Positions 5,807-64,000 of a stretch of DNA of 64,000 nucleotides are shown piece by piece (position 1 is the stretch's first letter; each line of letters begins with the position of its first letter). The position numbers and the translations under genes are program-made. Under the pieces are notes generated by a model. It saw only the letters and a list, made by a program, of their open reading frames with translations, searched no databases and was not told where the DNA came from. The stretch comes from Nigrospora sphaerica (taxonomy: Eukaryota > Ascomycota > Sordariomycetes > Amphisphaeriales > Apiosporaceae): the NCBI GenBank assembly GCA_018287875.1, contig JAGVVL010000009.1, positions 124,001 through 188,000 of the forward strand. The letters are read 5' to 3'.

Positions 5807-6868
5807 ATGCGCCTCCTACAGCTTCAACGCGATGGGGTCCTGAGCCTGACGGAGGACCTCATCGACGGGATCCCGCCATACGCCATTCTTTCCCACACGT
5901 GGGGGACCGATCACCAGGAAGTCACCTTCCAGGACATCCAACACCACACAGGCCAGCACAAGAAGGGGTATAGGAAGCTTACGTTCTGCGGCCAGCAGGC
6001 GGCTGCGGACGGCTTACAGTACTTCTGGGTCGACACGTGCTGCATCGACAAGTCGAACAGCACGGAGCTATCGGAAGCCATCAACTCGATGTTTCGCTGG
6101 TATCAGAACGCTGTTCAGTGCTACGTCTATCTATCCGACGTTTTGGTGGGCGCTAGCGAGAGGAAAGGGAAGCCTGACATATCTTGGGATGCGGCCTTCC
6201 GGGAAAGCCGATGGTTTACCCGTGGCTGGACGCTTCAGGAGCTGATCGCCCCGAAGTCAGTCATCTTCTTCTCAGAAGACGGCCGGCAACTAGGCGACAA
6301 GGCGTCGCTCGAGACGCTTCTGTATGAGATCACGGGGATCTCGATCGACGCACTTCGAGGGAAGCCTTTACCAACCTTCAGTGTGGAGGAGCGACTTTCC
6401 TGGAGAGGAGAGCGAAGAACCAAACGTGCAGAAGACCGGGTCTACTCCTTGCTCGGGATCTTTGACATATTCCTGCCGTTAATCTACGGCGAAGGGGAGC
6501 AGAACGCGTTCATCCGACTCCAGGACGAAATTGACAAACGCGCCCAAAGCCGTTCTAAAATACGCAATGGCAAGTTAGCTTCCCTCTCCGTATTTCGTTT
6601 GCTAATTTCCCTAGCATTCCACGTAGACGATGGTTTCCAGTCAGCCAGGCCCGCAAGTCTCCGCATAAGACAAGGAGGTTCGAAATTTCAGAGCAACATC
6701 ACTTTGACTGGCAACGCATCGTCCGACCAAGGCAACAAGATAAGAGGCGTTACCCATGGCGACATAGTGCAAGAGGGATCGGAATTCAGTGGAAACGTGA
6801 ATGCGGGAGGCAGAGCTCAGGCGTTGCAGGGCAACCAAATCGACGCGAAGACAGCTACTATGGAGTAA
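5807..6868 (+). CDS. HET-domain effector with two C-terminal amyloid-like repeats
   Basis: Two exons, 5807-6569 and 6615-6868 (338 aa). The intron of 45 nt has a GC donor (ATG/GCAAGT) and a CTAATTTCCCTAG acceptor. Its length is divisible by three, so unspliced RNA is also readable. Residues 1-250 form a HET domain with its hallmark blocks: YAILSHTWG near residue 24, FWVDTCCIDK near 80 and RGWTLQELIAP near 145. HET domains trigger incompatibility cell death in fungi. After a linker come two repeats about 33 residues apart: GSKFQSNITLTG...DQGN (starts near 276) and GSEFSGNVNAGG...LQGN (near 309). They match one motif at the N-terminus of each neighbouring NACHT-WD40 protein. Exon 1 is closely similar to the HET exon of the gene at 59.7 kb. 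Inferred role: downstream executor activated by the receptors through templated amyloid folding. Confidence 0.8.
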   Translation: MRLLQLQRDGVLSLTEDLIDGIPPYAILSHTWGTDHQEVTFQDIQHHTGQHKKGYRKLTFCGQQAAADGLQYFWVDTCCIDKSNSTELSEAINSMFRWYQNAVQCYVYLSDVLVGASERKGKPDISWDAAFRESRWFTRGWTLQELIAPKSVIFFSEDGRQLGDKASLETLLYEITGISIDALRGKPLPTFSVEERLSWRGERRTKRAEDRVYSLLGIFDIFLPLIYGEGEQNAFIRLQDEIDKRAQSRSKIRNGKLASLSVFRLLISLAFHVDDGFQSARPASLRIRQGGSKFQSNITLTGNASSDQGNKIRGVTHGDIVQEGSEFSGNVNAGGRAQALQGNQIDAKTATME

Positions 6869-7587
6869 GCGGGTGCTCTGGCCACTTGGTAGCGGGAGCG
6901 CGATGGCATCGTTATAGGAGACCTGTAAGATCTTCGTCCATATGAAATCTTTAGGTTTACTGAATGATAGATAGGCCGGGAAAAACATCACATTTTGGGG
7001 AAAATAGAGCCACAAGCTAATGCATGAACTCTAGGTATATCCCATAGCTGGCGAGCTGTCATGCGCTTATGCCTGTGGCAGGGACGACCCATCACCCTGT
7101 GCCTCGATAGCTCCGTCGCTAGTGTCCCGTCTGCCCTAACACATTGGCCTTCGGATAGGATTGGGTAGGCTCGCCCTGCCCCGCACCCTATCTGCCTGGC
7201 TACCCCTCCTACCGGCCAACGGCACCGTGTCTACTACTCCCCCCTAGCAGGAGCTCTGTCCGAGTACCTACACAAAGTAGTGGAAAGGTTTGCGTGAATA
7301 TCGAAAGGAGACAATGAAGCCGTGTCCCGCCACGTCTCAATACACACATGTAATCACGGCTTTCAGTACTGCATAGCACCAACAACTAACAGAGCCGCTG
7401 TTAGCTCCGGCAGGCTGACGTAGGCTGCCTACGCTGCTAATCCCGCACCTTGAACGTATCTTCCAGCGTCGCTCCATGTACCGGAAGGTTCTAGCTATGC
7501 CAGCGGTGGCAATGCCAGTAGGTGGCAATGACGGCAGGTAGCAATGACGGCAGGTAGCATGTTGTCGGCTGTGCACTATCGTCGGAA
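6869..7587. other. Intergenic between HET effector and convergent NACHT-WD40 gene
   Basis: No gene is recognised. It contains short GGCAATGACGGCAGGTAGC-type direct repeats (about 7508-7558) just beyond the 3' flank of the NACHT-WD40 gene. Confidence 0.35.
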
Positions 7588-10500
7588 GGCCCATCATAAC
7601 TAATAGGTGTCTTCCACGAACTACGGTCGCATTCGTTCGTATAGAAGACGAGCTATCGATTCGTAACGATTCGTCGATAAACCTTGTTCTCGAAGATTCC
7701 GCCACAACAGTGCAAGGTCTATAAATTTGTGCCGCCCCCTAGGACCCTCCTTTACAAAGAGATCAGATTAGAGCTTGGAAGCGATCGAGGAAGGGTTAGA
7801 AGCGTGACAAATGAAAGAGATAAACCCGACCGGACGCGCAACCGAGAACGAGGTTCGTGCCCTTCTCAGTCGCGAACACGGCGGACGTAGTCGGCCGGTA
7901 CTCGGGCGGGAGCCAGAGGACCGGATGCGATTGCTGCTGAATCCAAGCCCCATCGACACTCAGGCCGAAGTCTTCCTGTGGCGGAGGGGCGGGTGTTGAC
8001 TTTGGGAGGTACGTATCGTCTTCCCCCAGCATCGCTTCGTCGATGCGAATATCGCCCTTGTCGGTGTGGATCCGGGTGCCGGTCGGATCGAACGCGACGG
8101 TCGAGGTGAGGCCGGCGTGGTAGGTACGGAGGCATACGCCCGTCTGCGCGTCCCAGAGCCGGACGGTGTTGTCGCGCGACGCCGTGACGACGCGCCGCCC
8201 GTCCGCCGAGAAGGCCGCCGACCGGACCCAAGAAGCATGGCCGTCGAGGACGGCGTCGCACGTGCCGGTCTGCGCGTCCCAGAGCCGGACGGTGTTGTCG
8301 TCCGACGCCGAGACGACGCGCCGCCCGTCCGCCGAGAAGGCCGCCGAGTAGACCGAAGAAGTATGGCCCTCGAGGACGGCGTCGCACGTGCCGGTCTGCG
8401 CGTCCCAGAGCCGGACGGTGTTGTCGACCGACGCCGAGACGACGCGCCGCCCGTCCGCCGAGAAGGCCGCCGACCTGACCCAAGAAGTATGGCCATCGAG
8501 GACGGCGTCGCACGTGCCGGTCTGCGCGTCCCAGAGCCGGACGGTGTGGTCGTTCGACGCCGAGACGACGCGCCGCCCGTCCGCCGAGAAGGCCGCCGAG
8601 TAGACCGAAGAAGTATGGCCCTCGAGGACGGCGTCGCACGTGCCGGTCTGCGCGTCCCAGAGCCGGACGGTCTTATCGTCCGACGCCGAGACGACGCGCC
8701 GCCCGTCCGCCGAGAAGGCCGCCGAGTAGACCCAATCCGTATGGCCCTCGAGGACGGCGTCGCACGTGCCGGTCTGCGCGTCCCAGAGCCGGACGGTCTC
8801 GTCGTGCGACGCCGAGACGACGCGCCGCCCGTCCGCCGAGAAGACCGCCGAGTAGACCGAAGAAGTATGGCCCTCGAGGACGGCGTCGCACGTGCCGGTC
8901 TGCGCGTCCCAGAGCCGGACGGTCTTGTCGCTCGACGCCGTGACGACGCGCCGCCCGTCCGCCGAGAAGACCGCCGAGTAAACCGAAGAAGTATGGCCGT
9001 CGAGGACGGCGTCGCACGTGCCGGTCTGCGCGTCCCAGAGCCGGACGGTCTCGTCGTGCGACGCCGAGACGACGCGCCGCCCGTCCGCCGAGAAGGCCGC
9101 CGAGTTGACCCAATCCGTATGGCCGTCGAGGACGGCGTCGCACGTGCCGGTCTGCGCGTCCCAGAGCCGGACGGTCTTATCGTCCGACGCCGAGACGACG
9201 CGCCGCCCGTCCGCCGAGAAGGCCGCCGAGTTGACCGAATCCGTATGGCCCTTGAGGACGGCCTCGCACGCGCTCCATTGCTCCGCTAACTTCGTTTTAC
9301 ACTCCACCCATCGTGGTGCCTCGTGCTTGAAGAGGTCTCGCATTAGGCTCTGCCTTGGGCTCAGCACGAGTGGTGCGGCGTACGCCTGAAGCGGCCGGCT
9401 CTCGATAGCCGGCCAAAAGGTTTGCAGAAGACGGCAGGCGTCTTTCACGAGCGCTTGAAGTCTCGACGCCCCCGGCCGTTCCTTTACGCTTTTAGCTCGA
9501 AAGACACCGTGCTAGGGCGTGTAAAGGCGTACCTGTAAATGCCGTAGTAGCCTCTCTAATGCGTGCATCCCTTCCGATATGCTCCGCAGCAGACTTAAGG
9601 ACTCGATCCAGTAGAGTCCCTTGCCCCGAAGGAACCTATCGACCACCTCGTACTCTCGTACGCTATCGTCCCTCCCCGGAGCCTTGTCAGCATCGATGAA
9701 ATGGTCGACCCAGTAGACACAAGAGTATCCTGTTACCGCCAATAGATCGGGGTTAGGTCTCCGCCGAGAGACATCCTCGATAGGGAAGCCTAGGTCGTGC
9801 AGCCTGTAGATGTCGCGTTTCAGCGTCTGGGACATGGCCTCGATCGACTTGGAGAAAATCCGACCGTGGAGGGCGGCTTGCTGTTCGGGGAACCGGGTGA
9901 CCGATTGCTCCTTCATTAAGAAATCCTTCGCCGACTGGTGGACGAAGTAGACCGTCTCCTCGCGCACCGTAAGGAAGGACCCGCAAAGGCGAACCATATC
10001 GTGGAGGGATTGGATGTTGCCTAGCATGCCTTGCCATTCCTCGATAAAGACAGTCGACTCAGCGAAGGAAAGTGGCCGGTATGCGGTTGCGACCAAAGTC
10101 AGGATCCTATGGCAGAGCGCTGCATACCGCGACGCGGAGATCTGTTCCATCATTCGCTGGTAGAGGGGGCCAAGTCCTAGCGGGAATGATTTCGCTGTTT
10201 GCACCGCTTCCCATTCAAATGCCATGCTCAGCTCCTCGCAGACCAAGGCGACCCAGAGGAAGGTGCCGTCAGCACTCGACGATAGGTACCCACGCACTTC
10301 GTTAGCGGTGCTATCTCGGTAGCTCATACGTCGTGCAAGGTCAGACACCTTATAGGTGATGTAGTTGTCCACAGCGGCTGTGACCGACTTCGCATTAACC
10401 TCTAGCGAGAGCCGGTGCGCTACTTTTGACAGCTGCCGCCCGATATGCGGCAGATTCCGGCTCGAGACGAGCCATTTGGCACAGGTTGATCGCGAGGTCT

Positions 10501-11125
10501 CGACAATTAAATCGAGGAGCTGTATTAGGTCTTTCACACACTCGTCCAGTGCATCGACCACGAGGCAGACGCCTTGTAGCTTCGTGTCCTGGAGCATATT
10601 CATGAAGATCTCGGACAGCGCCTGCCACGCGTTCGCATCCTCAAAGAGCGCCTTGCCAGCGGTGTCGTATTTCTTCTTTATGTGTGACATAAGAGAGGCG
10701 TCTTGGTTGAGAAGCATGAAGATAAGACCGCGTAGGACGGCTGTCGCGGTGTTAAGGCGTCCGTCGGTGGCTTGGCAGAAGAAGTACGAGCGGTGACTTC
10801 TCTCGGCCGGTGGCTTTTCTAGTTCGTCGATGATGCCGCAGAGGAGCATGGTCTTGCCCTTGCCCGGGTCGCCCTTGACCCAGAGCAGCCGCTGGTCGTC
10901 GTTGTCGCGCCATTGGCAGAAGTCGGGGTTGTCGAGCACCCAAGCGTACGCGTCTGCGAGCAGGCCGCCCTTGGTGCTCTGGATGCGCTCCTTGTCGTGG
11001 CGGGGGTCGGTGATGCGCAGGTCGGCGAGGCATCGGTCGGCTGTCTGGTAGTTGTTGACGGTGTTGCCCTGATGTAAGATTCCAGACACCTCGTACTTGC
11101 CGTCGAAATGGGAGCCGGACTGGTC
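7588..11125 (-). repeat. Left arm of an inverted duplication carrying a NACHT-WD40 gene
   Basis: This arm matches 15415-18712 on the opposite strand, from the motif near the start of the receptor through the whole gene and about 200 nt of 3' flank. The flank includes the identical block GGAGGGTCCTAGGGGGCGGC. The arms differ mainly by two extra 126-nt WD40 units here. The spacer between arms is about 4.3 kb. Confidence 0.75.
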
Positions 11126-11209
11126 TATAGAGGCATCTGATCTTGCTGTCCGAGTCGTTAGATCAGTAGCACATGGCGATTTCCTTTCTGGTAGGCAACA
11201 TAGGATCAC
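7796..11209 (-). CDS. NACHT-WD40 NOD-like receptor with N-terminal amyloid-like motif (NLR-2)
   Basis: Exon A 11209-9533 and exon B 9481-7796 are joined by a 51-nt intron (GTACGC...GTAAAG). Near the N-terminus is one motif GSHFDGKYEVSG...HQGN, matching the HET effector's repeats. The NACHT ATPase follows: Walker A GDPGKGKT, Walker B LVVDALDEC. Exon B carries nine WD40 units of 42 residues (9250-8117), nearly identical apart from a few positions, then a conserved tail ending FHLSRF. The architecture is that of NWD/HNWD receptors, in which WD40 repeats sense a ligand and NACHT oligomerises. The start is unresolved: 11209 is a GTG, the frame stays open upstream to about 11318 without an ATG, and a separate exon with ATG at 11475 may be spliced on. 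It is transcribed divergently from NLR-1 and convergently with the HET effector. Confidence 0.82.
8117..9250 (-). repeat. Tandem array of nine 126-nt WD40 units
   Basis: Nine in-frame 126-nt units encode GHTxxVxSAAFSADGRRVVSAS followed by xDxTVRLWDAQTGTCDAVL. Nucleotide identity between units is very high. Differences cluster at residues 4-5 and 7 of the unit and around the xDx triplet. This pattern is expected from unequal exchange or gene conversion combined with diversification of the binding face. Confidence 0.85.
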
Positions 11210-11475
11210 ATACGACGCACTACTGAAGACGCAGTTTTTGGATCGTTTTCTCCTAGAGGAATTGAATATTTGTCTGATACCGTTGCCCGGCAGATATTGG
11301 TCGTTGATATTCCGGTAGCGACCTCATCCACACGTGGCGTCGACTCACGGGAATGTTGCTGGCTCGGTTGCTGTGAGGAATGCGCCCCCCAAAACAGCTG
11401 GTACACGCACGCAGCAAGTAGAGCTACAACAGTCACCCCAAGAAGCAGATGGGTGGGAAGTTCCACGGCACTCAT
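11206..11475 (-). CDS. Possible membrane-anchor exon or small membrane protein upstream of NLR-2
   Basis: ATG at 11475 opens a frame of 89 codons with a strong hydrophobic segment (HLLLGVTVVALLAACVYQLF, residues 9-28) followed by a Ser/Gln-rich stretch. A good splice donor, GTGAGT, follows codon 42 (about 11349). Joining it to an acceptor CCTACCAG near 11188 would give a 161-nt intron and restore the NLR-2 frame, placing a transmembrane anchor in front of the amyloid motif. That acceptor lacks a clear branch site, and the sister gene NLR-1 has no such exon, so an independent small membrane protein or a chance frame is just as possible. Confidence 0.3.
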   Translation of the reverse strand: MSAVELPTHLLLGVTVVALLAACVYQLFWGAHSSQQPSQQHSRESTPRVDEVATGISTTNICRATVSDKYSIPLGENDPKTASSVVRRM

Positions 11476-11511
11476 TGTGTAAGACCCGACGTTTGCTCTT
11501 AGGAAACACAA

Positions 11512-13392
11512 GTCCGGGATTTGCGCGTGAGGGAGGATCTATGTGACCTATGCTGGTTTCCTCTACAATTGCGCACTTGAGGCACAGGCTCGCGCCAAAA
11601 GCGGGCTGGCCCGCAGACTGGGCTGAGATGCGTCCGAACCCCTCCCGAACAGATTAGCCTTAGGAAAATCGGGGAATTACCCCGTTGTATAGACGAATAA
11701 CCGCTGCGGAAACGCCGGTGATAAAGTTACAAGCGGCGGGCCGAGTCGACAGCGCCTATGCGGGGTGTTCTAAACGTAAGCCGGCTCGCTATGGGCCTCG
11801 AGACTGTGCGCCTTGCCAAGCAGAAAGACATTAATTTGGGCTGACAACTTTTCCGAAATTTCACCGGGAACTGCATTGGATAAAAGAAATCCCACCGCAT
11901 AAGCCCAAAGCAGCATGGCGGGAGAGCTTGGAAGGCGGATTAAGCGCCCTTGGCGTTGAGCGATTTAGCTGTATGCAGAGCCAGGGTACCCAGAAAGCCC
12001 TAGACGGCAGCGGGTACAGTGAACAGACGAATGCGATAGGGCCACAGCAAGGCTGGCAAAGGTGGCGGCTCTGTGAGATGACTATGCTGCGGACAAGGGG
12101 GCTAGTTCCAGGCGCTACAGCACAGCCTTTGGCCATTGAGACCGCAGTGCGCAACCCTGAACCTTGCCTTCCGAGAGCAACAGCTGTGATGCAGTCGGTG
12201 ATGTGGGAAATAGACGCTTGTGACCGCGCAATAGTTGCGTCTTTGGATCGTCGTCAAGACAGAGTTCGTTATGTGAAGCGCGACTAGAGACTGGTACGGG
12301 TCCAGTCGCGGATACCCCAGTCAGGGACACTACCCCGCAGCTTCGTGGGCGCATAGGGTGATAACACAGCCAGTCGATCATGCGCCTCAAGCACGCCAAG
12401 CTTAGCCCAATACTGCGAAGGGTGACCGCCGTGTGGCATTGGGCCTGGGTCGAGCGGTGCCGCACGAGCCGGTACCAGCCCATAGGACCCATACGGATAC
12501 AGCAGCGGCGCTCGCCGCGACTAAGCTTGCGTGGCGCCAAAGAACGCTGTTGGGGGCACTGCCGCCGGCGACGCCGCCGAGGCGCGGGGGTGGCCTGGCC
12601 AGCGGGAAGAAAGAACGAGACATGCAACGCCTACCAGTATGTCTCAGTACATCACAATAGCAGTATCGCTTGCGTGGCGGGTCAGATAGGCGAATGCTAC
12701 CTGGGCTTCGCGCGTTGGCCTCGAGCGCGCTGGCCCACACAAAGCTCTCCTGCAGCCGCGTTCGCACCGCCATGGGCTGCTTCCATAGCCAGATTCGAAA
12801 GCCGGTCCTACCGGCCCCAGAACGGGAGACTTGGAAAGCTGAGCAATTATAGTGCAAAAGCAAGCAGCGTAAGCTAGCTATACGACGTGCGGTGTCGACG
12901 TTCAGGGCGGCCAATTCGGTACCACTGCCTATCACGGCCGCCGTCGGCACGGCACACTCGACTCCATGAACGGTATCGTGCCTATCGAGAGCCACACTTG
13001 CTCAATGCATGCTCTTTCCGCGATGCTAGCGTTATGTTCGAAAACGCCGCCTGAATATATCCGTGCATACGTATTTGGTGGAAGCTCTCATTGCATGCTC
13101 TGACCAGATTACTGCTTCGTGGCCCGCCTCGTCTGTACACAGCAGGGGGAACCACAGAACGTCCGACGTGCTATTGACACCCAAAGACGGATGCTGGCTA
13201 CTCATACTACATTCGTTTCAAAGGGCCACATGGAACATGTATCTGGTTGGTAGCATAACCAAGGTATGCTGCCAGACGATTGACTCCATTCCCATGCCAA
13301 TATCTCGTGGTTCACGTCGCATGCCGCCTGCCGTCGCATCCGGTCTGCTAAGCCATGGTATATGGTGGCCTTCTCGGCATCGAAAGATCACC
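11512..13392. other. Spacer of the inverted duplication, left part; no gene recognised
   Basis: Only fragments without recognisable homology are seen, including several overlapping frames of 170-200 codons around 12.1-13.0 kb with unnatural composition. On the minus strand just downstream of 13393 an open stretch continues (about 13388-13210) that could be read-through from the orphan exon at 13393-13674, but no family is evident. Confidence 0.35.
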
Positions 13393-13674
13393 CTAAGAAG
13401 CCGTGACATTTCCCTCGTCCATCTTGTCGTCCTCCTCCTTCACCGTGCCGTCGACCCTGTTCCCTTGCGACAATCGTGCGTTCTCATCACCGGTGATTTC
13501 ACCTTCGTATTGAGACCCCTCCTGGCGCACAGCGCCACCCTGATGGCCAGTCACGGAGTTGCCCTGGCTTGCCGAGGCGCTTTTGCCCAGCTTAATTATG
13601 CTCTTGAATTTGGAAGGTCCTTGCCAAACTTGATTGCTTTGACCTGTGACGGTCGCTGTAGCTTCACCCTTTAG
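13393..13674 (-). pseudogene. Orphan C-terminal exon of a second amyloid-motif effector
   Basis: On the minus strand a frame open from 13674 to TAG at 13395-13393 encodes two motif copies: SKFKSIIKLGKS...SQGN (starting about 13618) and GSQYEGEITGDE...SQGN (starting about 13518), followed by an acidic tail. They match, in order and spacing, the two C-terminal repeats of the HET effector at 5.8 kb and the single motif of the two receptors that flank this exon. Plausible splice acceptors lie just upstream (CTAAAG or GGTGAAG near 13670-13662). No HET, HeLo or other effector domain could be recognised up to 15.3 kb on this strand. I interpret it as the surviving last exon of a second effector, either decayed or with an unrecognised N-terminal domain. 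It may still be expressed. Confidence 0.6.
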
Positions 13675-15376
13675 TCAGTTTGTCTGTGGAAGTGTAAACT
13701 GCTCTGGGGCCTCAGACCAGGCTCGCTAGCTTCGACCGTCTCGACACTTTCCGATTGGTTAGTAAAGGCTTGAACGTTGCCTAACAGCAGCAGGTCTTAC
13801 ACCGACCCAGTTCCGAGTTGCCGTCCTGGACCGTTCATTATGTATTTGGTCGACTGTTAGAAGCGTTGTGGTTCGTGGAGGCGTTGAATGTCGCAGTAGA
13901 TTGGGTACGCTTTCGTGGCGGAATGTGGTTTGATGCGATAGGAAGGAACCTCGTGACGCGAAATTTCCGTTCTCGCTGAAGAGCAGCGTACAGCTTGGTC
14001 AAGTTTATAATCAATGGTTTGGGGCGAAGTTAAAGCCTCGCAGGCACGCAAGGGCTCCATAGGTCCGCTAAGAGCTTGTCCTGCGCAGCTGAAGGGGTCG
14101 TGTGGCGTTGGGGTGGCCACGTACATGAGCTAAGCACACCTACCGCCTGTCGCCAGATGCTGAGGTCGATGTCGTGATATAGCAGCTAGCCTTCCCCCAT
14201 TCCTCTAGGAAGGTTAGCTCGCGAAACATCACCTTACTGTACACAATCGAGCCTGCAGACGGCGGCAGGTTTCCTGCTGAATAAGCTACGTAGGGTTGAG
14301 CCGTCCTAATCGGGTGTGGTAAGGAGCAGCTTCGATAGTGGGTGTTGGGATCACCCACCAAGCTCCCCCACAGTCTTCACCCGAGGCACGATAGCTCTGC
14401 TCTCTAGTTAACATGGGCCATGAAGCCTGATGCTAATTCGCACGGCAATATCCACGACGGGGCCCATACTAACCCACATTCGCCATGCAGGTCAGATTCG
14501 ACATTGACGAACAACCACACGGCCATGGGTATGATCACCGGTGTCTTGCTTGACGCACAGCCGACGGCACCACGGTTATTGCTCCCGGCGAGGGGCAAGG
14601 TGGAGTCCATGATCACGATGACCGAGGCAGGCTCTAGCGCTCCTGGACCCTCATCCTAGACCGCGGGACCGGCCGTCTCGCAAGCCTTGCCCAATCCTGC
14701 TATGGTCCTATCCCATTCGCCCACTCACTGCATCCTCTGCCGCCCGGGGCTTCCAGCAGTTCCTTAGCGCTACGCACCGCTGAACCGCCCGACGCTACAG
14801 GCGCTTGCAGCGTCCTACTCCTTGTGCTCAGGATCGACGCTGTGCTTTCTACCACTGCAGACTTCTCTGCCTAGTTAGTGTCTCGGCGCCTAGCTTGCTG
14901 TGGTGGCTAGACCTGGAAAAAGCCAATTTCAGGGCTATTTCACTAACCTGCATCGTTACCTATTCCCGTATAGGAGCGTCCTTGTCCCCATAGCCAAAAA
15001 GTGCACCGACCGAATGCGCTTGGCGATGGGGTGACGGCTTGCAGCCTTGCAGTCACTAGGCGCTGTATCATGGTCACTCGTTCAATCATATGGGCTCCTT
15101 TCCTAGCTAGCATCAAGCCATCAATGCAGGTAGACGTCAATCTAGGGCGGCTGTCTTCAGGCTCTGTGCAGAGGGCTCTTCAATCTGGACATACGCAGGT
15201 ATGGTTATTCAACAGGGAATCGTCATTTACCTTTAAGGGCTTTACTGTTGTATCGCTAAACACCGCTTGTTTAGCTGTAATCACTGGAGTGAAGTGTTCC
15301 TGGGTTCGAATGTGAGTGCTTTTCCCTGGAAGGAATCAGCTTGAAGTATCTCCTAAATCTGTATCTGTGGCAGCCG
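13675..15376. other. Spacer of the inverted duplication, right part; no gene recognised
   Basis: It includes the 5' flank of NLR-1 and the stretch where the body of the second effector would be expected. A minus-strand segment around 13800-13700 (hydrophobic and Gln-rich, then VETVEASEP) could be an upstream exon of the orphan. Nothing else is recognisable. Confidence 0.35.
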
Positions 15377-18300
15377 ATGGATGCAGTACAAAGTATCAAC
15401 ATGGGAACGCACATCAGCCAAAGCGGCTCGCATTTCAACGGCCAGTACGACGTGTCAGGGTCATTCCAACAAGGTAACATCATCAACATCCAGCAGACGG
15501 CCGACCGATGCCTTGCCGACCTGCGTGTCACCGACCCCCGCGACGACAAGAAACGCATCCAGAGCACCAAGGGCGGCCTGCTCTCGGACTGCTACGGCTG
15601 GGTGCTCGGCAAACCCGAATTTTGCGAATGGCGCGACCACGAGGACCAGCAACTGCTTTGGGTTAAAGGTGACCCGGGCAAGGGCAAGACCATGCTCCTC
15701 TGCGGCATCATCGACGAGCTGGGACGAACACCGGCGGAGAGAATGCGCCTCGCCTATTTTCTCTGCCAAGCCACCGACGGACGCCTTAACACCGCGACGG
15801 CCGTCCTACGCGGTCTTATCTTTATGCTTCTCGACCAAAACGCCTCTCTTATGTTACACATAAAGAAGAAATACGACACCGCCGGTAAGGCGCTCTTTGA
15901 GGATGCGAACGCATGGCAGGCGCTGTCCGAGATCTTTACAAACATGCTCCAGGACACGAAGCTACAAGGCGTCTGCCTCATGGTCGATGCACTGGACGAG
16001 TGTGTGGGTGGCCTACCGCAGCTCCTAGAGCTGATTACCGAGACCTCGCGATCAACCCGTGCCAAATGGCTTGTCTCAAGCCGCAACTGGCCGCAGATTA
16101 AAGAACAGCTGTCCAACGTGGCGCACAGTCTATCGCTCGAGGTCAATGCGAAGTTGGTTGCAGACGCAGTGGACAGCTACATCACGCATAAGGTTGCACA
16201 CCTTGCACAACGTAAGCGTTATCGAGACAACATGGCCGAAGGAGTACGCCAGTACCTGTTATCGAACGCCGACGGCACTTTTCTCTGGGTTTCTTTAGTC
16301 TGTCAGGAACTCGAGAAGACACGCCAAGGGAGGGCTTTACGGATGATTAAGACTTTCCCACCGGGCCTCGATGCTCTATATGAACGGATGATAAAACAAA
16401 TCCAAGCATCGGACGATGCCGAGCTCTGTATGCAGGTGCTTGCTCTCGTTGCAACAACTTATCGTCCACCTTCACTTACCGAGTCTACTACGTTTATCGA
16501 GGAAGACAGCAGCATGGTGGAAGATGCCGAATCGCTGGAAGAGATTGTCAGCCTTTGCGGCTCGTTCCTCACAATGCGCGAAAGGACGGTCTACTTCGTC
16601 CACCAGTCGGCGAAGGACTTCTTGATAAAGACGCAATCAGCCGTTCTTTTCCCCCAAGAGCAAGCCGGCCTCCACGGTCGGATCTTCTCCAAGTCGATCA
16701 AGGCCATGTCCCGGACGCTAAAACGCGATGTCTACGAGCTGCACGACCTAGGCTTCCCTATCGAGGATGTCCCTCGGCGGAGACCTAACCCAGATCCATT
16801 AGCTGCAACACAATACTCCTGTGTCTACTGGGTCGACCATTTCATCGATATTAACAAGGCTCCGGGGAGGGACGACGGCATGCAAGCGTACGAGGCGGTC
16901 GACAGGTTCCTACGAGGCAAGGGGCTCTACTGGATCGAGTCGTTAAGTCTACTACGGAGCATATCGGAAGGGATGCACGCATTAGAGAGGCTGATACGGC
17001 ATTTACAAGTACGCCTTTATATGCCCTAGCACGGTGTCTTTCGAGCTAATAGTGTAAAGAAACGGCCGGGGGCGTCGAGACTCGAAGCGCTCGTGAAAGA
17101 CGCCTGCCGTCTTCTGCAAACCTTTTGGCCGGCCATCGAGAGCCGGCCGCTTCAGGCGTACGCCGCACCACTCGTGCTAAGCCCAAGGCAGAGCATCATG
17201 CGAGACCTCTTTAAGCGCGAGGCCCCGCGAGGGGTGGAGTGTAAAACGAAGTTAGCGGAGCAATGGAGCGCGTGCGAGGCCGTCCTCAAGGGCCATACTA
17301 GAGACGTCACTTCGGCGGCCTTCTCGAGGGACGGGCGGCGCGTCGTCTCGGCGTCGCGCGACAAGACCGTCCGGCTCTGGGACGCGCAGACTGGCATGTG
17401 CGACGCCGTCCTCGAGGGCCATACGGATTCGGTCAACTCGGCGGCCTTCTCGGCGGACGGGCGGCGCGTCGTCTCGGCGTCGCGCGACCACACCGTCCGG
17501 CTCTGGGACGCGCAGACCGGCACGTACGACGCCGTCCTCGACGGCCGTACGGATTCGGTCAACTCGGCGGCCTTCTCGGCGGACGGGCGGCGCGTCGTCT
17601 CGGCGTCGGACGACACGACCGTCCGGCTCTGGGACGCGCAGACCGGCACGTGCGACGCCGTCCTCGAGGGCCATACGGATTCGGTCAACTCGGCGGCCTT
17701 CTCAGCGGACGGGCGGCGCGTCGTCTCGGCATCGGACGACAACACCGTCCGGCTCTGGGACGCGCAGACCGGCAGATGCGACGCCGTCCTCGACGGCCAT
17801 ACGGATTGCGTCTACTCGGCGGCCTTCTCGGCGGACGGGCGGCGCGTCGTCTCGGCGTCGGGCGACAAGACCGTCCGGCTCTGGGACGCGCAGACCGGCA
17901 CGTGCGACGCCGTCCTCGAGGGCCATACGGGTTGGGTCTACTCGGCGGCCTTCTCGGCGGACGGGCGGCGCGTCGTCTCGGCGTCGGGCGACCAGACCGT
18001 CCGGCTCTGGGACGCGCAGACCGGCACGTGCGACGCCGTCCTCGAGGGCCATACGGGTTGGGTCAACTCGGCGGCCTTCTCGGCGGACGGGCGGCGCGTC
18101 GTCTCGGCGTCGGACGACCAGACCGTCCGGCTCTGGGACGCGCAGACTGGCGTATGCCTCCGTACCTACCACGTCGGCTTCACCTCGACCGTCGCGTTCG
18201 ATCCGACCGGCACCCGGATCCACACCGACAAGGGCGATAGTCGCATCGACGAAGCGATGCTGGGGGAAGACAATACGTACCTCCCGAAGTCCACACCCGC

Positions 18301-18514
18301 GCCTGCGCCACAGGAAGACTTCAGTCTAAGTGCCGATGGGGCTTGGATTCAGCAGCAATCGTATCCGGTCCTCTGGCTCCCGCCCGAGTACCGGCCGACT
18401 ACGTCCGCCGTGTTCGCGACTGAGAAGGGCACGAACCTCGTTCTCGGTTGCGCCTCCGGTCGGGTTTATCTCTTTCATTTGTCACGTTTTTACCCCTTCC
18501 TCGATCGCTTCTAA
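15377..18514 (+). CDS. NACHT-WD40 NOD-like receptor with N-terminal amyloid-like motif (NLR-1)
   Basis: Exon 1 is 15377-17008 and exon 2 is 17060-18514. The 51-nt intron begins GTACGC, has GCTAAT as branch site and ends GTAAAG. The product is about 1028 aa. Residues 17-38 hold the motif GSHFNGQYDVSGS...QGN, matching the HET effector's repeats. The NACHT domain follows with Walker A GDPGKGKT and Walker B LMVDALDEC, then seven WD40 units (17291-18172) and the conserved tail. Compared with NLR-2, the usual stop after FHLSRF has changed, adding seven residues. I chose the ATG at 15377; a second ATG at 15401 is also possible. Known family role: ligand sensing by WD40, NACHT oligomerisation, then templating of an effector. 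The ligand is unknown. Confidence 0.85.
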
Positions 18515-25629: not shown

Positions 25630-28600
25630 TCAGTGCGCTTCCCTCACGGGCTGTTGCGCGTCAAGTCGGCCTGTAGCCATAGCGAATCGTATGGTGGCCC
25701 GAACGGCGTCCATGTCCGGGGTCCAGAATCGGTCATCGGATGCGGACCTCCCTCCTAGGTAAAAGGAGAGGTTGCTTCGATGGGTCTCGGTGTATTGTAG
25801 CATGTCTCGTCGATGTTCTATCCATTGGTGGCATCGGAAGAGGAAGTGGTCTACCGTTTCTCTTGCTTGTCCGCAGGCGCACAGGTCGGACGGCGCTACC
25901 TCGATTCGGTGGAGGTATGCGTTCAACCTGGCCATCCCCGTCCGCAGCTGGGCGAGTACGCTTGCTTCTTTCGAGGAGAGGGGGTCGTATAGTGCTCTCG
26001 TGTGTTTGCCTGGTAATGCTGTATCGATCTTTTTCGAGTATTTTCCGACGTCTTCTGGTAGCCTGTTCGACGGCATCTTCTCGCGCCACGCATTGTTCAG
26101 GATTGTCGATCGTGCTCCGGATATCGGTGTCGGCGGACTAGCGCCCAGACGTGTCGATATTTTCGCTTCCTTCTTTGCCAGGTCTATGCGTTCGTCGCAT
26201 TCGTCTGTTGGGAACCAAGTAATGGTGATGCTGCTTCCCTCTCTTCGTAGTCTCCGCATCGCCTCGTAGGCCTGTCGGACGTGCCTTTGGCCCGACTGCT
26301 GGCGGGGTTTATTTAATGTAAGCACAGCTGCTTTGTTCCGTGTTAACAGTATGATGTTGCGGTACCGCATCCTCGGCAGCGAATCCAAGGCACTGGCTAT
26401 GCCTGCTAGCTCGCCCGTAAACGGGTTCTGTTCCGATCTTGGGCCGAGAGTCGCAGACCAGGTGTTCGTCGTGGACTCGCTATGAACCGACGTCTTTGTT
26501 TCGGTGGCCACGCCATAGCCAACGAGGCCGTTCCGTGCCGAGCTGCTTACGGCAATGCATACCGCGCAGACGGTGGCGGACTCTTTTGCCGGTTCTTCGG
26601 TCACTGTCCGTACTCGGCTCTCCCAGGGGGCCAGCGTAAACGGGTCGACCGTCTCAAGGCATTCCATAGGCATCTCTTTCAGCGCATCAGCCACTTGGTA
26701 GAGGGGCGAGCGGTGGTACCGCCTAAACTTGCGCATGCGGCCGATGCAACTGCGCAGGGGGTTCGTGTCGGGTAGTGTGTGAATGTCCGTCCAGGTCTTG
26801 ATCGCTTTCCGCCAGAACCGCCCTTGGAGGGTAGCGATGTGGGCTTCGGCCTCCGCCACACTGGTGGCCACCGTCATGAACGTCCCTATGATTGCCTGGG
26901 CCCCGATCTTCTGGATCCGGTGGATCGGTCTTGCTGCTTTATATTGGCATTCGTGCATCCACACGCTCGAGGCATAGTCCACAACGGGTGCTACTGTCGC
27001 TGTGAAGAGCTGCCGTGCCGTTGCCGGCGACAGCCCTTTCAAACGCTTCAGTTCTAGCACCGCCTCGAGTCCCTTAGCCCCAGCGCGCGCGATGTGTTCT
27101 CTGTACTTGAGCTTGGTGTCCATGATGACTCCGAGGATCTTAACATGGTCTCGGGGCCGTACGGTTTGTCCTTTGATCGTGAAGGGCTCCTCACTGGCCT
27201 TGTACGCTTTACGGGCGAAGTGGATAACGGCCGTCTTCTCGGCTTCGAACGTTGCGCCGCTCCTCTTTTCCCAGTCAAGGGCGTCTTTGATGATGGCCTC
27301 TATGCCGGCACGGTTGTCCTGAGCCGTCGGGCCGACAACCCAGGCTGTGAAGTCGTCCACAAAGGCGATCGCGCCCCCGTAGCAGTCGATCCGTCGCTGG
27401 ACCAAATCTGCATTAAAGAAGAGGAACAAGATGGGGGACAGCGGCGATCCTTGCGGGAGGCCAGCCTGCGGTAGCGCTCGAACTTCTGAGACGTGTCCGT
27501 TGACCATGATCGTCGCGGTTCGGTTAGAACAGAACGCCTCGATCCACTGGAGCAGTTCATTCGGCACGCCGCGCGCTTTCATCCTTTGAAGCAGCCGTTC
27601 CTTGCATACCCCATTGTATGCTCCCTTGACGTCGAAGCTCACGAGACTGAGGACCTTTCGGCCCCGCCAAGCAGCATAGACCTGCTCCTGCAGGAGTAGC
27701 AGTGCCTGCTCGGCGGACCGCCGTTTACGGGCCCCGAAGTGGTTCGTGGGCAGGAGGCCGTAGGTCTCGACCATGTGTGAGATCCTCTCAGCAACAACCG
27801 ACTCCAATACCTTGCCCAGGGTTGCGAGGAGCGAGATCGGTCTCCAGGCTTTCGCTTTCGTGTAATCGTCTTTCCCCGGCTTCTGGAGCGGGACGATTCT
27901 CGCATGGAGCCACTGGGTGGGCAGTTCTCCGGTTTTGAGAGACGCGCGGAATAGCGTCAGGACCCGGTCCTTCACCACGGGCCATGTTTCTTTCCAGACG
28001 ATGGCCGGCAAGCCGTCCTCTCCTGGTGCTTTCCATGGTTTGGCTGCGAATAGTTGCCTCTCCACCTCTTCCATCGTGATGGCGCGCATGTTGATAGGGG
28101 TCCTCCGGGGTCTGTCGCCCTCGTCGGCAATCTCACTCGGAAGGGGAGGGAAGAACGTGGCGAGCAGTTCTTCCGCCTGTTCCTTGTGGCCCGTCGTCGT
28201 TGTGCCGTCCGCCCTCGCGAGTTGCGGCACTTTCCCGAACGCCGACGCGTCGCCCGACTTCAGGTATTTGGCCGCCTTCCAGATGTTGTCGTTGTCCGCG
28301 AGAAACTCGTTCCAGTGCTTCTTCTTCTGTTGGCGGATGGCCTCATGGTACTGCTTGGCTGCGCCTCTCGCCGTTTCCTCCAGGTCTGTCCGGGTCCGCC
28401 CCGCTCTTCGCTCGGCCCTGCTCTTGTTTCTCCAGTACGTGTAGATGCGTCGCAGCTGTGTCAGGTCAGTCGTCCACCAGCGCTTTGCGTACGGTGATGG
28501 TTTGGCACGGGGGTAAGCGTGTGCACGGCTTCCCGCACTGCGCTCATCAGGCGGTCGGCTTGCTGCTGCACACTACCTCCCGTCGGGGTTGTCGCCAGTG

Positions 28601-59698: not shown

Positions 59699-62600
59699 AT
59701 GCGCCTCCTACAACGTCAGAGCGATGGGCTCTTAAGCCTGACGGAGGATCGCATCGAGAAGATCCCGCCCTACGCCATCCTATCGCACACATGGGGAGCC
59801 GACGAGCAAGAGGTCACCTTCCAGGACATCCAAAACCACGCAGGCAAGCACAAGGAGGGGTTTGAGAAGCTTGCTTTTTGCGGCAAACAAGCTGCCGCCG
59901 ATGGCTTGCATTACTTTTGGGTCGACACATGCTGCATCGACAAGCCGAACTATACGGAGCTTTCCGAGGCGATTAACTCCATGTTTCGCTGGTACCAGAA
60001 CGCTACGAAGTGCTATGTCTACCTACCCGATGTTTCCCTACTTAACAGCGACGGGAAAGAGACGCCCCGCGCTACGTGGGAGCTAGCTTTTAGGAGAAGT
60101 CGATGGTTTACTCGCGGATGGACGCTCCAGGAACTAATCGCCCCAAAGTCGGTGACCTTTTTCTCGAAAGAAGGCCAGAAATTAGGCGATAAGGCCTCAC
60201 TAGAGACGCTACTCCACGAGATTACAGGAATTCCAGTCACCGCACTCCGAGGGAAGCCCCTACCTATCTTCAGCGTAGAGGAGCGACTTTCCTGGAGAGG
60301 AAAGCGGTCGACAAAACGCGCAGAAGACCGGGTCTACTCCTTGCTCGGAATCTTCGATATCCATCTACCATTGATTTACGGCGAGGGAGAATCAAACGCG
60401 TTCATTCGACTTCGAGAGGAGATCGACAAGCGCTCTCACGGTACCTCCCGAACTTCCAATGGTAAGGAGGCTGTCGCGGACTATAGTTCATTACTAATGT
60501 TCGTATAACTAGGCAAAGACACGGTCGGCGAAACAGGCAAACGATGCATCGCCGACATCCGTGTGACCGACCCGCGCCACGACAAGACGCGCATCCAAGA
60601 GACCAAGGGCGGCCTGCTCGCGGATTCGTACGTCTGGGTACTCAACAACTCCGACTTTCGCCAATGGCGCGACGACGAGGACCAGCGGTTGCTCTGGGTC
60701 AAGGGCGATCCAGGCAAGGGCAAGACCATGCTCCTCTGCGGCATCATCGACGAGCTCGAGACATCGCCCGCCGAGGGAAGCGTCCTCGCCTACTTCTTCT
60801 GCCAAGCCACCGACGAACGTATCAACACTGCTACGGCCGTAGTGCGCGGTCTGATCTCAATGCTTCTCGAGAAGCACGCCACTCTCGTTTCGCACATAGA
60901 GAAGAAGTACGACATCGCCGGAAAGGCGCTTTTCGAGGACACCAATGCCTGGGAGGCGCTATGCGAGATCTTCACCAGTATCCTCCAGGACCCCAGAATA
61001 GAAGGTGTCTGCCTTATAGTCGATGCATTGGACGAGTGTATGAAGGGTCTGCCACAGCTCCTCAAACTCATTACGCAGATCTCACAATCAACCCGTGCTA
61101 AATGGCTCGTCTCGAGTCGCAATCGGCCGCAAATCGAAGAACAGATGTCCAACGTGGCGCAGAGGCTGTCGCTCGAGATCAATGCGGAGTCTGTCTCAGC
61201 GGCTGTCGAGTCTTACATCAGACAGAGGGTCGAAGAATTGGCCAAAGAGAAGACCTACAGTGTCACGACAAAGCAACGTGTACATCGCTACCTTTCCACC
61301 CATGCAAAGGGCACCTTTCTTTGGGTGGCATTAGTTTGTCAAGAGCTCAAGACAGTGCCGGAGTTTGGCGCCCTGAGAAAGGTCAAGACGTTTCCGACAG
61401 GGTTGGATGCTCTTTATGGGCAAATAATGAAGCAGATCGGCGCTTCCGAATTTCACGATAGATGTCACAAACTTCTCGCTGTGGCTGCAACAGTTTATCG
61501 CCCTCTCTCGCCACTGGAATACGGATCGTTCCTCAGGGACCTCAAGGACCCCCCGAGCGACACTGAGTCAGACGATATGGACTGGGAAGATGACCCAGAG
61601 CGTACCACCTCGGAAGAGAGTACCTTCGGCTTCACAAAGACGGTGCAGGATTTAGTTAGCCTCTGCGGCTCCTTCCTTACGGTTCGCGAGGACATAGTCT
61701 ACTTTGTACACCAGTCAGCGAAGGACTTCTTAATGAGGGAGCAATCGGCCGTTCTTTTCCCGGAAGAGCAAGAAGCCGTCCATGGGCAGATTCTCTTCAA
61801 GTCTATTGAGGCTATGTCGCGGACACTCACGCGCGATATGTATAGCCTGCATGAGCCTGGCGTCCACATCGATCAAGTCACCCCGCCCTCGCCCGATCCA
61901 CTGGCGACAATCAAGTACTCTTGCCTCTACTGGGTCAATCATCTAGTGGACTCCTGTAAGGCACCGGGTAGGGATGATGTACAAGACGGCGGGTTAGTAC
62001 ACAAATTCCTACAAGGCAGTTTCCTTTACTGGCTGGAGTCCTTAAGTCTGCTGAAGGGCATGTCCGAGGGGGTTTTAGCTTTGGAGAAGCTTATCGACTA
62101 TATGCAGGCAAGTCTATGTTTCTCCTACTCTCTAATTTACGGCTAACGGCGTGAAGACGCAATCAGGATCATCCCAAGGGCAAGCTCTAGCTCGCGACGC
62201 GTATCGGTTTACGCAAAGCTACCGAGTACTAATAGAAAGCCGGCCACTTCAGACGTACGCATCAGCACTTGTATTCAGCCCCAGACAGAGCTTGATTCGA
62301 GGCCTTTTTCAGCACGAGGCGCCCCATTGGGTCCAATGTAGGACACAAATAGCAGAGCAATGGAGTCCCTGCTTATCGACGCTCGAGGGCCACATATTTT
62401 CCGTCTCTTCGGCTGTCTTCTCGGCCGACGGGCGGCGCGTCGCCACGGCGTCCCACGACAAGACTGCTAAGGTTTGGGACGCGGCTACGGGAAAGTGCGA
62501 GGCGACGCTTAAGGGCCATACGGACGGCGTCTTGTCGGCCGTCTTCTCTGCCGACGGGCGGCGCGTCGCTACGGCGTCGCGCGATAAGACCGCCAAGGTC

Positions 62601-64000
62601 TGGAACGCGGCCACGGGAAAGTGCGAGGCGACGCTTGAGGGTCACACTTCGTACGTCTCTTCGGCCGTCTTCTCGGCCGACGGGCGGCGCGTCGCTACGG
62701 CGTCGCGCGATAAGACCGCCAAGGTCTGGAACGCGGCCACGGGAAAGTGCGAGGCGACGCTTGAGGGTCACACTTCGTACGTCTCTTCGGCCGTCTTCTC
62801 GGCCGACGGGCGGCGCGTCGCCACAGCGTCGCGCGATAAGACCGCCAAGGTCTGGGACGCGGCTACGGACAAATGCGAGGCGACGCTTAAGGGCCATACG
62901 GACGGCGTCTTGTCGGCCGTCTTCTCGGCCGACGGGCGGCGCGTCGCTACGGCGTCGCGCGATAAGACTGCTAAGGTCTGGGACGCGGCTACGGGTAAGT
63001 GCGAGGCGACGCTTGAGGGCCACACTTCGTACGCCTCTTCGGCCGTCTTCTCGGCCAACGGGCGGCGCGTCGCCACAGCGTCGGATGATAAGACCGCCAA
63101 GGTCTGGGACGCGGCCACGGGCAAGTGCGAGGCGACGCTTGAGGGTCACACTTCGTCCGTCTCTTCGGCCATCTTCTCGGCCGACGGGCGGCGCGTCGCT
63201 ACGGCGTCGCGCGATACGACCGCCAAGGTCTGGAACGCGGCCACGGGCAAATGCGAGGCGACGTTTGAGGGCCACACTTCCTCCGTCTGGTCAGCCGTCT
63301 ACTCGGCCGACGGGCGGCGCGTCGCCACGGCGTCGCGCGATAAGACTGCCAAGGTCTGGAACGCGGCTACGGGCAAATGCGAGGCGACGTTTGAGGGCCA
63401 CACTTCGTCCGTCTCTTTGGCCGTCTTCTCGGCCGACGGGCGGCGCGTCGCCACGGTGTCGTGTGATTCCACCGTTAAGGTCTGGGACACGGCCACGGGA
63501 AAGTGCGAGGCGACGCTCGAGGGCCACACTTCGTACGTCTCGTTGGCCGTCTTCTCGGCCAATGGGCGGTGCGTCACCACAGTGTCGGATGATAAGACCG
63601 CTAAGGTCTGGGACGCGGCTACGGGTAAGTGCGAGGTGACGCTTGAGGGCCACACTTCGAACATCTCGTCGGCCTTCTTCTCGGCCGACGGGCGGCGCGT
63701 CGCCACGGTGTCGCGTGATTCCACCGTTAAGGTCTGGGACACGGCCACGGGAAAGTGCGAGGCGACGCTCGAGGGCCACACTTCGTACGTCTCTTCGGCC
63801 GTCTTCTCGGCCGACGGGCGGCGCGTCATCACATCGTGGCCCGATAACACCGCTAAGGTCTGGGACACGGCTACGGGGAAGTACGAGGCAATGTTTGAGG
63901 GCCACACTTCGTACGTCTCGTCGGCCGTCTTCTCGGCCGACGGGCGGCGCGTCGTCACGGCGTCGCGCGATAAGACCGCTAAGGTCTGGGACGCGGCTAC
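59699..64000 (+). CDS. HET-NACHT-WD40 receptor (HNWD type), 3' end outside window
   Basis: Exons 59699-60461, 60513-62107 and 62157 to beyond 64000. Intron 1 (51 nt) has a GT donor; intron 2 (49 nt) has a GC donor (CAG/GCAAGT) and a CTAACGGCGTGAAG end. Residues 1-250 are a HET domain (YAILSHTWG, FWVDTCCIDK, RGWTLQELIAP), joined by a short linker (GKDTVGETGKRCIADIRVTD) to NACHT (Walker A GDPGKGKT, Walker B LIVDALDEC). After intron 2 come at least 13 WD40 units of 126 nt (62388 to the edge), of a different subfamily from NLR-1 and NLR-2 (TAKVWDAATGKCEATLE). This is the domain order of Podospora HET-E/HET-D/HET-R-type incompatibility proteins. It lacks the amyloid-like motif. The frame is open to the window edge. 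Confidence 0.88.
62388..64000 (+). repeat. Tandem array of at least thirteen 126-nt WD40 units
   Basis: Units start every 126 nt from 62388 (the last visible starts at 63900). The consensus is GHTSYVSSAVFSADGRRVAT followed by ASRDKTAKVWDAATGKCEATLE. Units 9-12 are more diverged (VSCDST, VSDDKT, VSRDST, SWPDNT) than units 2-8, suggesting that homogenisation acts most on the first part. Confidence 0.85.

Follow-up and report, generated by a model that had tools for sequence, protein, structure and literature searches.

HET domains abound in filamentous fungi, and in the account of PMC10197012 it is mostly unknown how stand-alone HET proteins are switched on. A locus of Nigrospora sphaerica raises the question of whether separate receptors can control such a protein through a short motif that both partners carry. 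The window, meaning the whole 64,000-nucleotide stretch that was analyzed, is C33:124001-188000 of the source genome (51.6 Mb, 33 contigs) and contains a HET-domain effector gene near two NACHT-WD40 receptor genes, NLR1 and NLR2. The effector ends in two copies of the motif (R1 and R2), and each receptor carries one near its N-terminus (R0). We consider it very likely that receptor and executor are split between proteins and wired together through this shared motif; that the copies would assemble in an amyloid-type manner is a reading that we favor with less confidence, by analogy with known fungal systems.

An earlier interpretation made from the letters alone (the sequence-only reading) had placed a HET effector at 5807-6868. 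The HET domain is borne out by PF06985 (E=1.6e-14, 54.9 bits against a cut-off of 22.5), and the forward-strand gene at 5807..6868 now has two exons (5807-6569 and 6615-6868) separated by a GC-AG intron (6570-6614), giving a spliced product of 338 amino acids. This 45-nt intron was assigned because the Microdochium nivale protein P0001, which is 86% identical to the effector (298/346 columns), lacks exactly those 15 residues. R1 (6677..6736) and R2 (6776..6835) are pattern matches on the same strand that start 33 residues apart, with a 13-residue linker between them, in agreement with the two copies about 33 residues apart that had been described at the effector's end. The tail that holds them is modelled as disordered. 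NLR1, modelled on the reverse strand at 7796..11475 (exons 11475-11214, 11145-9533 and 9481-7796; introns 11213-11146, which was read by eye, and 9532-9482), lies tail to tail with the HET gene. NLR2, on the forward strand at 15398..18514 (exons 15398-17008 and 17060-18514; intron 17009-17059), lies 8.5 kb from it. Both contain a NACHT domain (E=2.2e-11 in NLR1 and about 2e-11 in NLR2), WD40 repeats and a 51-nt intron. The repeats are 126 bp long with 93% matches and number nine in NLR1 (8138..9270, reverse strand) and seven in NLR2 (17271..18151, forward strand). One R0 copy matching the pattern stands ahead of NACHT in each receptor, at 11063..11116 (reverse strand) in NLR1 and 15425..15478 (forward strand) in NLR2, and no HET match occurs within 1.5 kb upstream of either. 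Motif and domain searches thus confirm what the sequence-only reading had proposed, namely one N-terminal copy in each adjacent NACHT-WD40 receptor, two in a linked effector with a HET executor, and the pattern G-S-x-[FY]-x-x-x-x-x-x-x-G-x(3-5)-Q-G-N at all four places.

The motif matches in the window are not due to chance. A working pattern matched 6 times in the window and never in 150 windows simulated with a second-order Markov model, and a narrower pattern gave 5 matches in the window, none in one set of 40 simulated windows and a single one in another set of 150; both patterns were drawn from the window copies and are therefore post hoc there. A forward test with a slightly different pattern form gave one new match in 19.8 kb of C18 beside the motif receptor C18:799512 and none in 300 simulations, and this new match proved to be the C-terminus of a gene. 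A profile of the effector tail also matched the NLR2 N-terminus (E=3.5e-4).

A query of the genome with the receptor N-terminus returned 31 places, 30 of which were fetched and examined; all receptor counts refer to these 30. The motif is present in nine (NLR1, NLR2, C16:1201955, C13:672748, C13:670503, C18:352580, C13:1922487, C18:799512 and the divergent C1:2708622). In thirteen others a HET domain of the same kind (67-77% identical) stands immediately ahead of NACHT. One of these receptors lies in the window at 59699..63995 on the forward strand; it had been overlooked in the sequence-only reading, reaches the window edge and has a HET domain 77% identical to that of the effector. The thirteen include a decayed one (C13:4643427) and three identical copies, whose regions, on C11, C13 and C29, are either recent duplicates or assembly redundancy. 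Eight receptors have neither HET nor motif, and an intact HET domain together with an intact motif was found in 0/30, C18:352580 having the motif plus a 71-residue HET fragment upstream. With 13/30 receptors fused to HET in cis, the motif thus seems to replace covalent fusion. In 2/10 fused receptors (C18:678283 and C33:184521, by eye) a donor occurs at the codon and phase at which the effector HET exon ends; in the remaining 8/10 the HET match stops short of that point or a candidate donor lies at another position. This is no more than suggestive of an intron shared by fused and split HET domains.

In a NACHT tree of 33 rows, one clade (99/97) holds eight of the nine motif receptors of this genome, one receptor with neither feature and a Colletotrichum receptor. 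Another (100/98) holds 11 of the genome's fused receptors together with two that have neither HET nor motif, a fused protein of Microdochium trichocladiopsis and the C1 motif receptor, which is divergent. According to PMC3321046, such executor domains are found fused to the receptor or encoded by a neighboring gene paired with it, and the same paper describes a deliberate search for HET/STAND pairs, in 2012, that found none.

The double motif is retained in the effector of M. nivale (Xylariales), which keeps both R1 and R2 although the two are distinct from each other, and this conservation supports the sequence-only reading. A protein search with the tail, limited to relatives sharing exact 5-residue words, found it in one protein among 17 candidates. 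Among the best 120 of 7999 scored HET homologues the tail is present only in P0001; these were ranked by HET domain, and therefore tail-bearing effectors of other species are not excluded. A search with the receptor N-terminus gave 14 proteins, two of which (P0002 and P0003) carry the motif, in each case at the N-terminus; one is from the Xylariaceae (Xylariaceae sp. FL0255), whose receptor falls outside both NACHT-tree clades, and one from Colletotrichum (C. somersetense). The motif is kept in species of two subclasses.

Within the genome, a query with the effector tail returned 5 places. An effector and two receptors recur on C13 in the order and orientations of the window, and on C16 a decayed effector and a single receptor follow that order. 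The three effectors form one clade in the HET tree (100/100). The window, C13 and C16 clusters share 80-94% DNA identity in long collinear blocks, so these are duplicated segments in which one origin was kept together rather than three. Kinship in the NACHT tree departs from synteny, with NLR1 grouping with the C13 minus-strand receptor, a mismatch that hints at sequence exchange among receptors. Between the window and C13 effectors, synonymous and nonsynonymous divergence (dS and dN) are 0.147 and 0.026 in the HET domain and 0.096 and 0.021 in the 83-codon tail, and all four replaced tail residues lie outside both motif copies. The C16 effector copy (C16:1197-1199 kb) contains stops and differs from the window at 59 of 900 aligned bases; 48/59 differences are G>A or C>T and 5 are the reverse, a spectrum that looks like repeat-induced point mutation.

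The gene whose C-terminus was found by the forward test represents a second type of candidate executor. It lies at C18:805356-807009, starting 2.2 kb past the end of the motif receptor C18:799512, and is a multi-exon gene with a hydrophobic N-terminus, a GHSLGG sequence and one C-terminal motif copy. Its lipase-like identity derives from the GHSLGG sequence and a weak match to PGAP1 (E=0.006, under the cut-off), together with a presumed resemblance to SesB proteins, for which we call it SesB-like. A relative with a degenerate tail copy occurs at C1:2714129-2715781, 2 kb past the C1 motif receptor; another, at C13:182457, is decayed but has a clean tail, and no receptor place of the 31 lies near it. 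Four motif receptors, among them NLR1, have a first exon related to that of the lipase-like gene. Tentatively, and at somewhat less than even chances, we propose a new fungal amyloid motif family in which one receptor family would serve both HET (TIR-like, two copies) and SesB-like lipase (one copy) executors, with some receptors membrane-anchored through the lipase-related first exon. About 3 kb past the lipase-like gene, C18:809767 encodes a canonical HeLo protein whose C-terminus bears a HET-s-type repeat.

Motif tails also occur without a HET domain. An orphan tail with a divergent motif pair lies on the reverse strand at 13396..13668, where the sequence-only reading had overlooked it; it is 38-40% identical to the HET tail, retains the key residues and has no recognizable domain ahead of it, so that it is a relic or an exon of an unrecognized gene. 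Querying the genome with it gave 6 places, one of them new, a copy with stops at C5:3557485. At C18:1116260-1116484 (reverse strand) a motif tail in an open frame without a HET domain adjoins a HET-NACHT-WD40 receptor.

How the split partners might communicate can be pictured from their families. Ligand binding to the WD40 repeats would drive oligomerization of the NACHT receptor, and the clustered R0 motifs would then nucleate R1-R2 in the HET protein's disordered tail. Stacking of R1-R2 may bring HET domains together and so cause cell death, the motif performing the role that covalent fusion has in the sister HET-NACHT-WD40 receptors. The assembly would be an amyloid-type beta-arch, its self-templating step being proposed by analogy. 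Two effector copies, one receptor copy and a disordered tail all fit a templating of R1-R2 by R0. Three findings beyond the sequence-only reading strengthen it: the recurrence of the gene order at another locus of the genome, the sister receptors fused to HET, and the additional class of effector.

Several observations weigh against this scheme. As the C13 and C16 clusters are duplicates, linkage in its HET form counts only once, and in the 10 kb examined no tail gene was found near the motif receptors C13:1922487 and C18:352580. When co-variation of linked motifs was examined, the tail of the C18 lipase-like gene scored best with its own linked receptor motif and effector R2 tied at the top with NLR2; no preference for neighboring receptor motifs is seen for effector R1, the orphan tail or the C1 tail, and linked motifs are not generally each other's closest. 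A beta-strand model of the effector tail was uninformative (pLDDT 39.5), and charge complementarity between R1 and R2 is weak, being reached by 973/20000 shuffles. Across six receptor pairs, dN/dS is 0.35 in the 20-codon motif versus 0.25 in the next 130 codons; the receptor motif is constrained, no more than its neighborhood.

The published motif strings were tested on 17 motif copies. The string of the HET-s-related amyloid motif (HRAM; Gly at 19, hydrophobic residues at 5, 8, 10, 16 and 18 of a 21-residue frame) matched 0/17, and the PP, sigma, PUASM and GDQN strings, which unlike the HRAM string were run without a positive control, matched 0/17 each. PF11558 (HET-s_218-289), a Pfam model that holds for part of HRAM only, is absent, and Pfam searches of the tail, the two receptor N-termini and the orphan tail were empty at E<=10. 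The motif profile matched no PDB chain and showed no similarity to the tail of the genome's own HET-s-type protein. These results agree with the remark in the sequence-only reading that the motif is unlike HET-s, so a HET-s-like fold is an analogy only. A register with Q at HRAM position 3 was tried and rejected, since Gly then falls at position 5.

That the motif is a sixth, divergent subfamily of HRAM and folds as the HET-s beta-solenoid, which would be compatible with split amyloid-type wiring, we regard as unlikely. This reading would account for the two-repeats-plus-one arrangement, for an R1-R2 linker of 13 residues inside the published 6-18, for a spacing that, as we read it, is near that of the HRAM frame but for an additional residue in the first arch, and for receptor copies poorer in D/E/K (0.073 versus 0.103 and 0.128), as reported for HRAM r0. 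It sits poorly with the string that fails on every copy yet matches the HeLo/HET-s-type protein C18:809767, which shows that a canonical system coexists in this genome, and with the missing Pfam and profile similarity. Slightly less probable is the same split wiring through a non-amyloid homotypic module, such as a small beta-clasp or an ordered short polymer. That no amyloid-motif model tested matches and that structure prediction is uninformative speak for such a module, whereas a short, Gly/Asn/Gln-rich, low-charge motif in a disordered tail, in two-plus-one copies, has the features of amyloid motifs as described in PMC3321046 and PMC4518210. Shared exon ancestry without signaling, in which tail and receptor N-termini stem from one duplicated exon and the HET protein acts alone, draws on the duplicated segments and on the turnover seen in the decayed C16 effector and the HET-less tails on C18, C33 and C5, but is very unlikely given a motif kept across two subclasses, a constrained tail, distinct copies R1 and R2 that M. 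nivale nonetheless retains, and the presence of this tail in a second effector class.

The closest known systems share parts of this split wiring. NWD2/HET-S of Podospora anserina (HRAM1) and other HRAM pairs likewise consist of linked genes with one receptor N-terminal and two effector C-terminal motifs (PMC4518210); their executor is of HeLo type, whereas here it is a HET domain and the motif is unmatched by string and profile. PNT1 with HELLP and the lipase SBP in Chaetomium globosum (PP), and the sigma locus sesA/sesB/het-eN, resemble the present system in that one motif class serves two executors, one of them lipase-like, as described in PMC5485727 and PMC3321046; their strings match none of our copies and neither has a HET executor. 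The HNWD receptors (HET-E, HET-D, HET-R) share NACHT, near-identical WD40 repeats and the same kind of HET domain, but have it fused, whereas NLR1 and NLR2 carry the motif instead and HET is a separate protein. In bacterial TIR effectors with BASS motifs, a TIR-type executor goes together with an NLR-linked amyloid motif, as portrayed in PMC7889193; these systems are bacterial with other motifs, and the HET-TIR kinship, taken from papers, is weakly supported here. The GDQN pair of Fusarium oxysporum, recently named in PMC12261475, is also a single receptor/effector pair with a Gly/Gln/Asn-rich motif, with a SesA executor and a string that matches none of our copies. Our motif may be identical to one of two motifs in PMC9815663, the unassigned NLR34 or NLR40, which is HRAM-like. 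That survey started from 19 profiles, HET included, and the pairs named in it belong to PP, sigma, HRAM and two PNP_UDP motifs. We found no description of a HET effector with an amyloid motif in open-access literature text; the 'HET effector' of PMC8086366 is, in the text cited, HET-S.

Motif-to-motif wiring is known in fungi for other killers, and the HET version is the part for which we found no description. If true, a motif-controlled HET executor in a genome that also has fused counterparts would allow a direct test of whether forced HET assembly is enough, and would parallel the bacterial TIR effectors with amyloid motifs. A new motif class, if true, would add material for tests of cross-seeding specificity.

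The probable start of NLR1 is 11475, in a first exon that is hydrophobic. In this predicted gene model the exon, in an open frame at 11209..11475 on the reverse strand, is 56% identical over 65 residues to the N-terminus of the C18 lipase-like gene. By eye, a hydrophobic exon and a phase-1 intron also stand ahead of the motif at the C16, C18:799 and C13:1922 receptors; for this reason the NLR1 exon is kept in the model rather than treated as a stray fragment. Of the four receptors, two have a clear hydrophobic stretch in this exon (KD19 2.34 and 2.05), and in the others it is borderline (1.46 and 1.59). A frame related to this exon at L037 + 2364 lacks an ATG and shows stops in the genome search. 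Elsewhere in the window, at 25630-28572 on the reverse strand, a 980-residue open frame resembles by eye a non-LTR retrotransposon reverse transcriptase.

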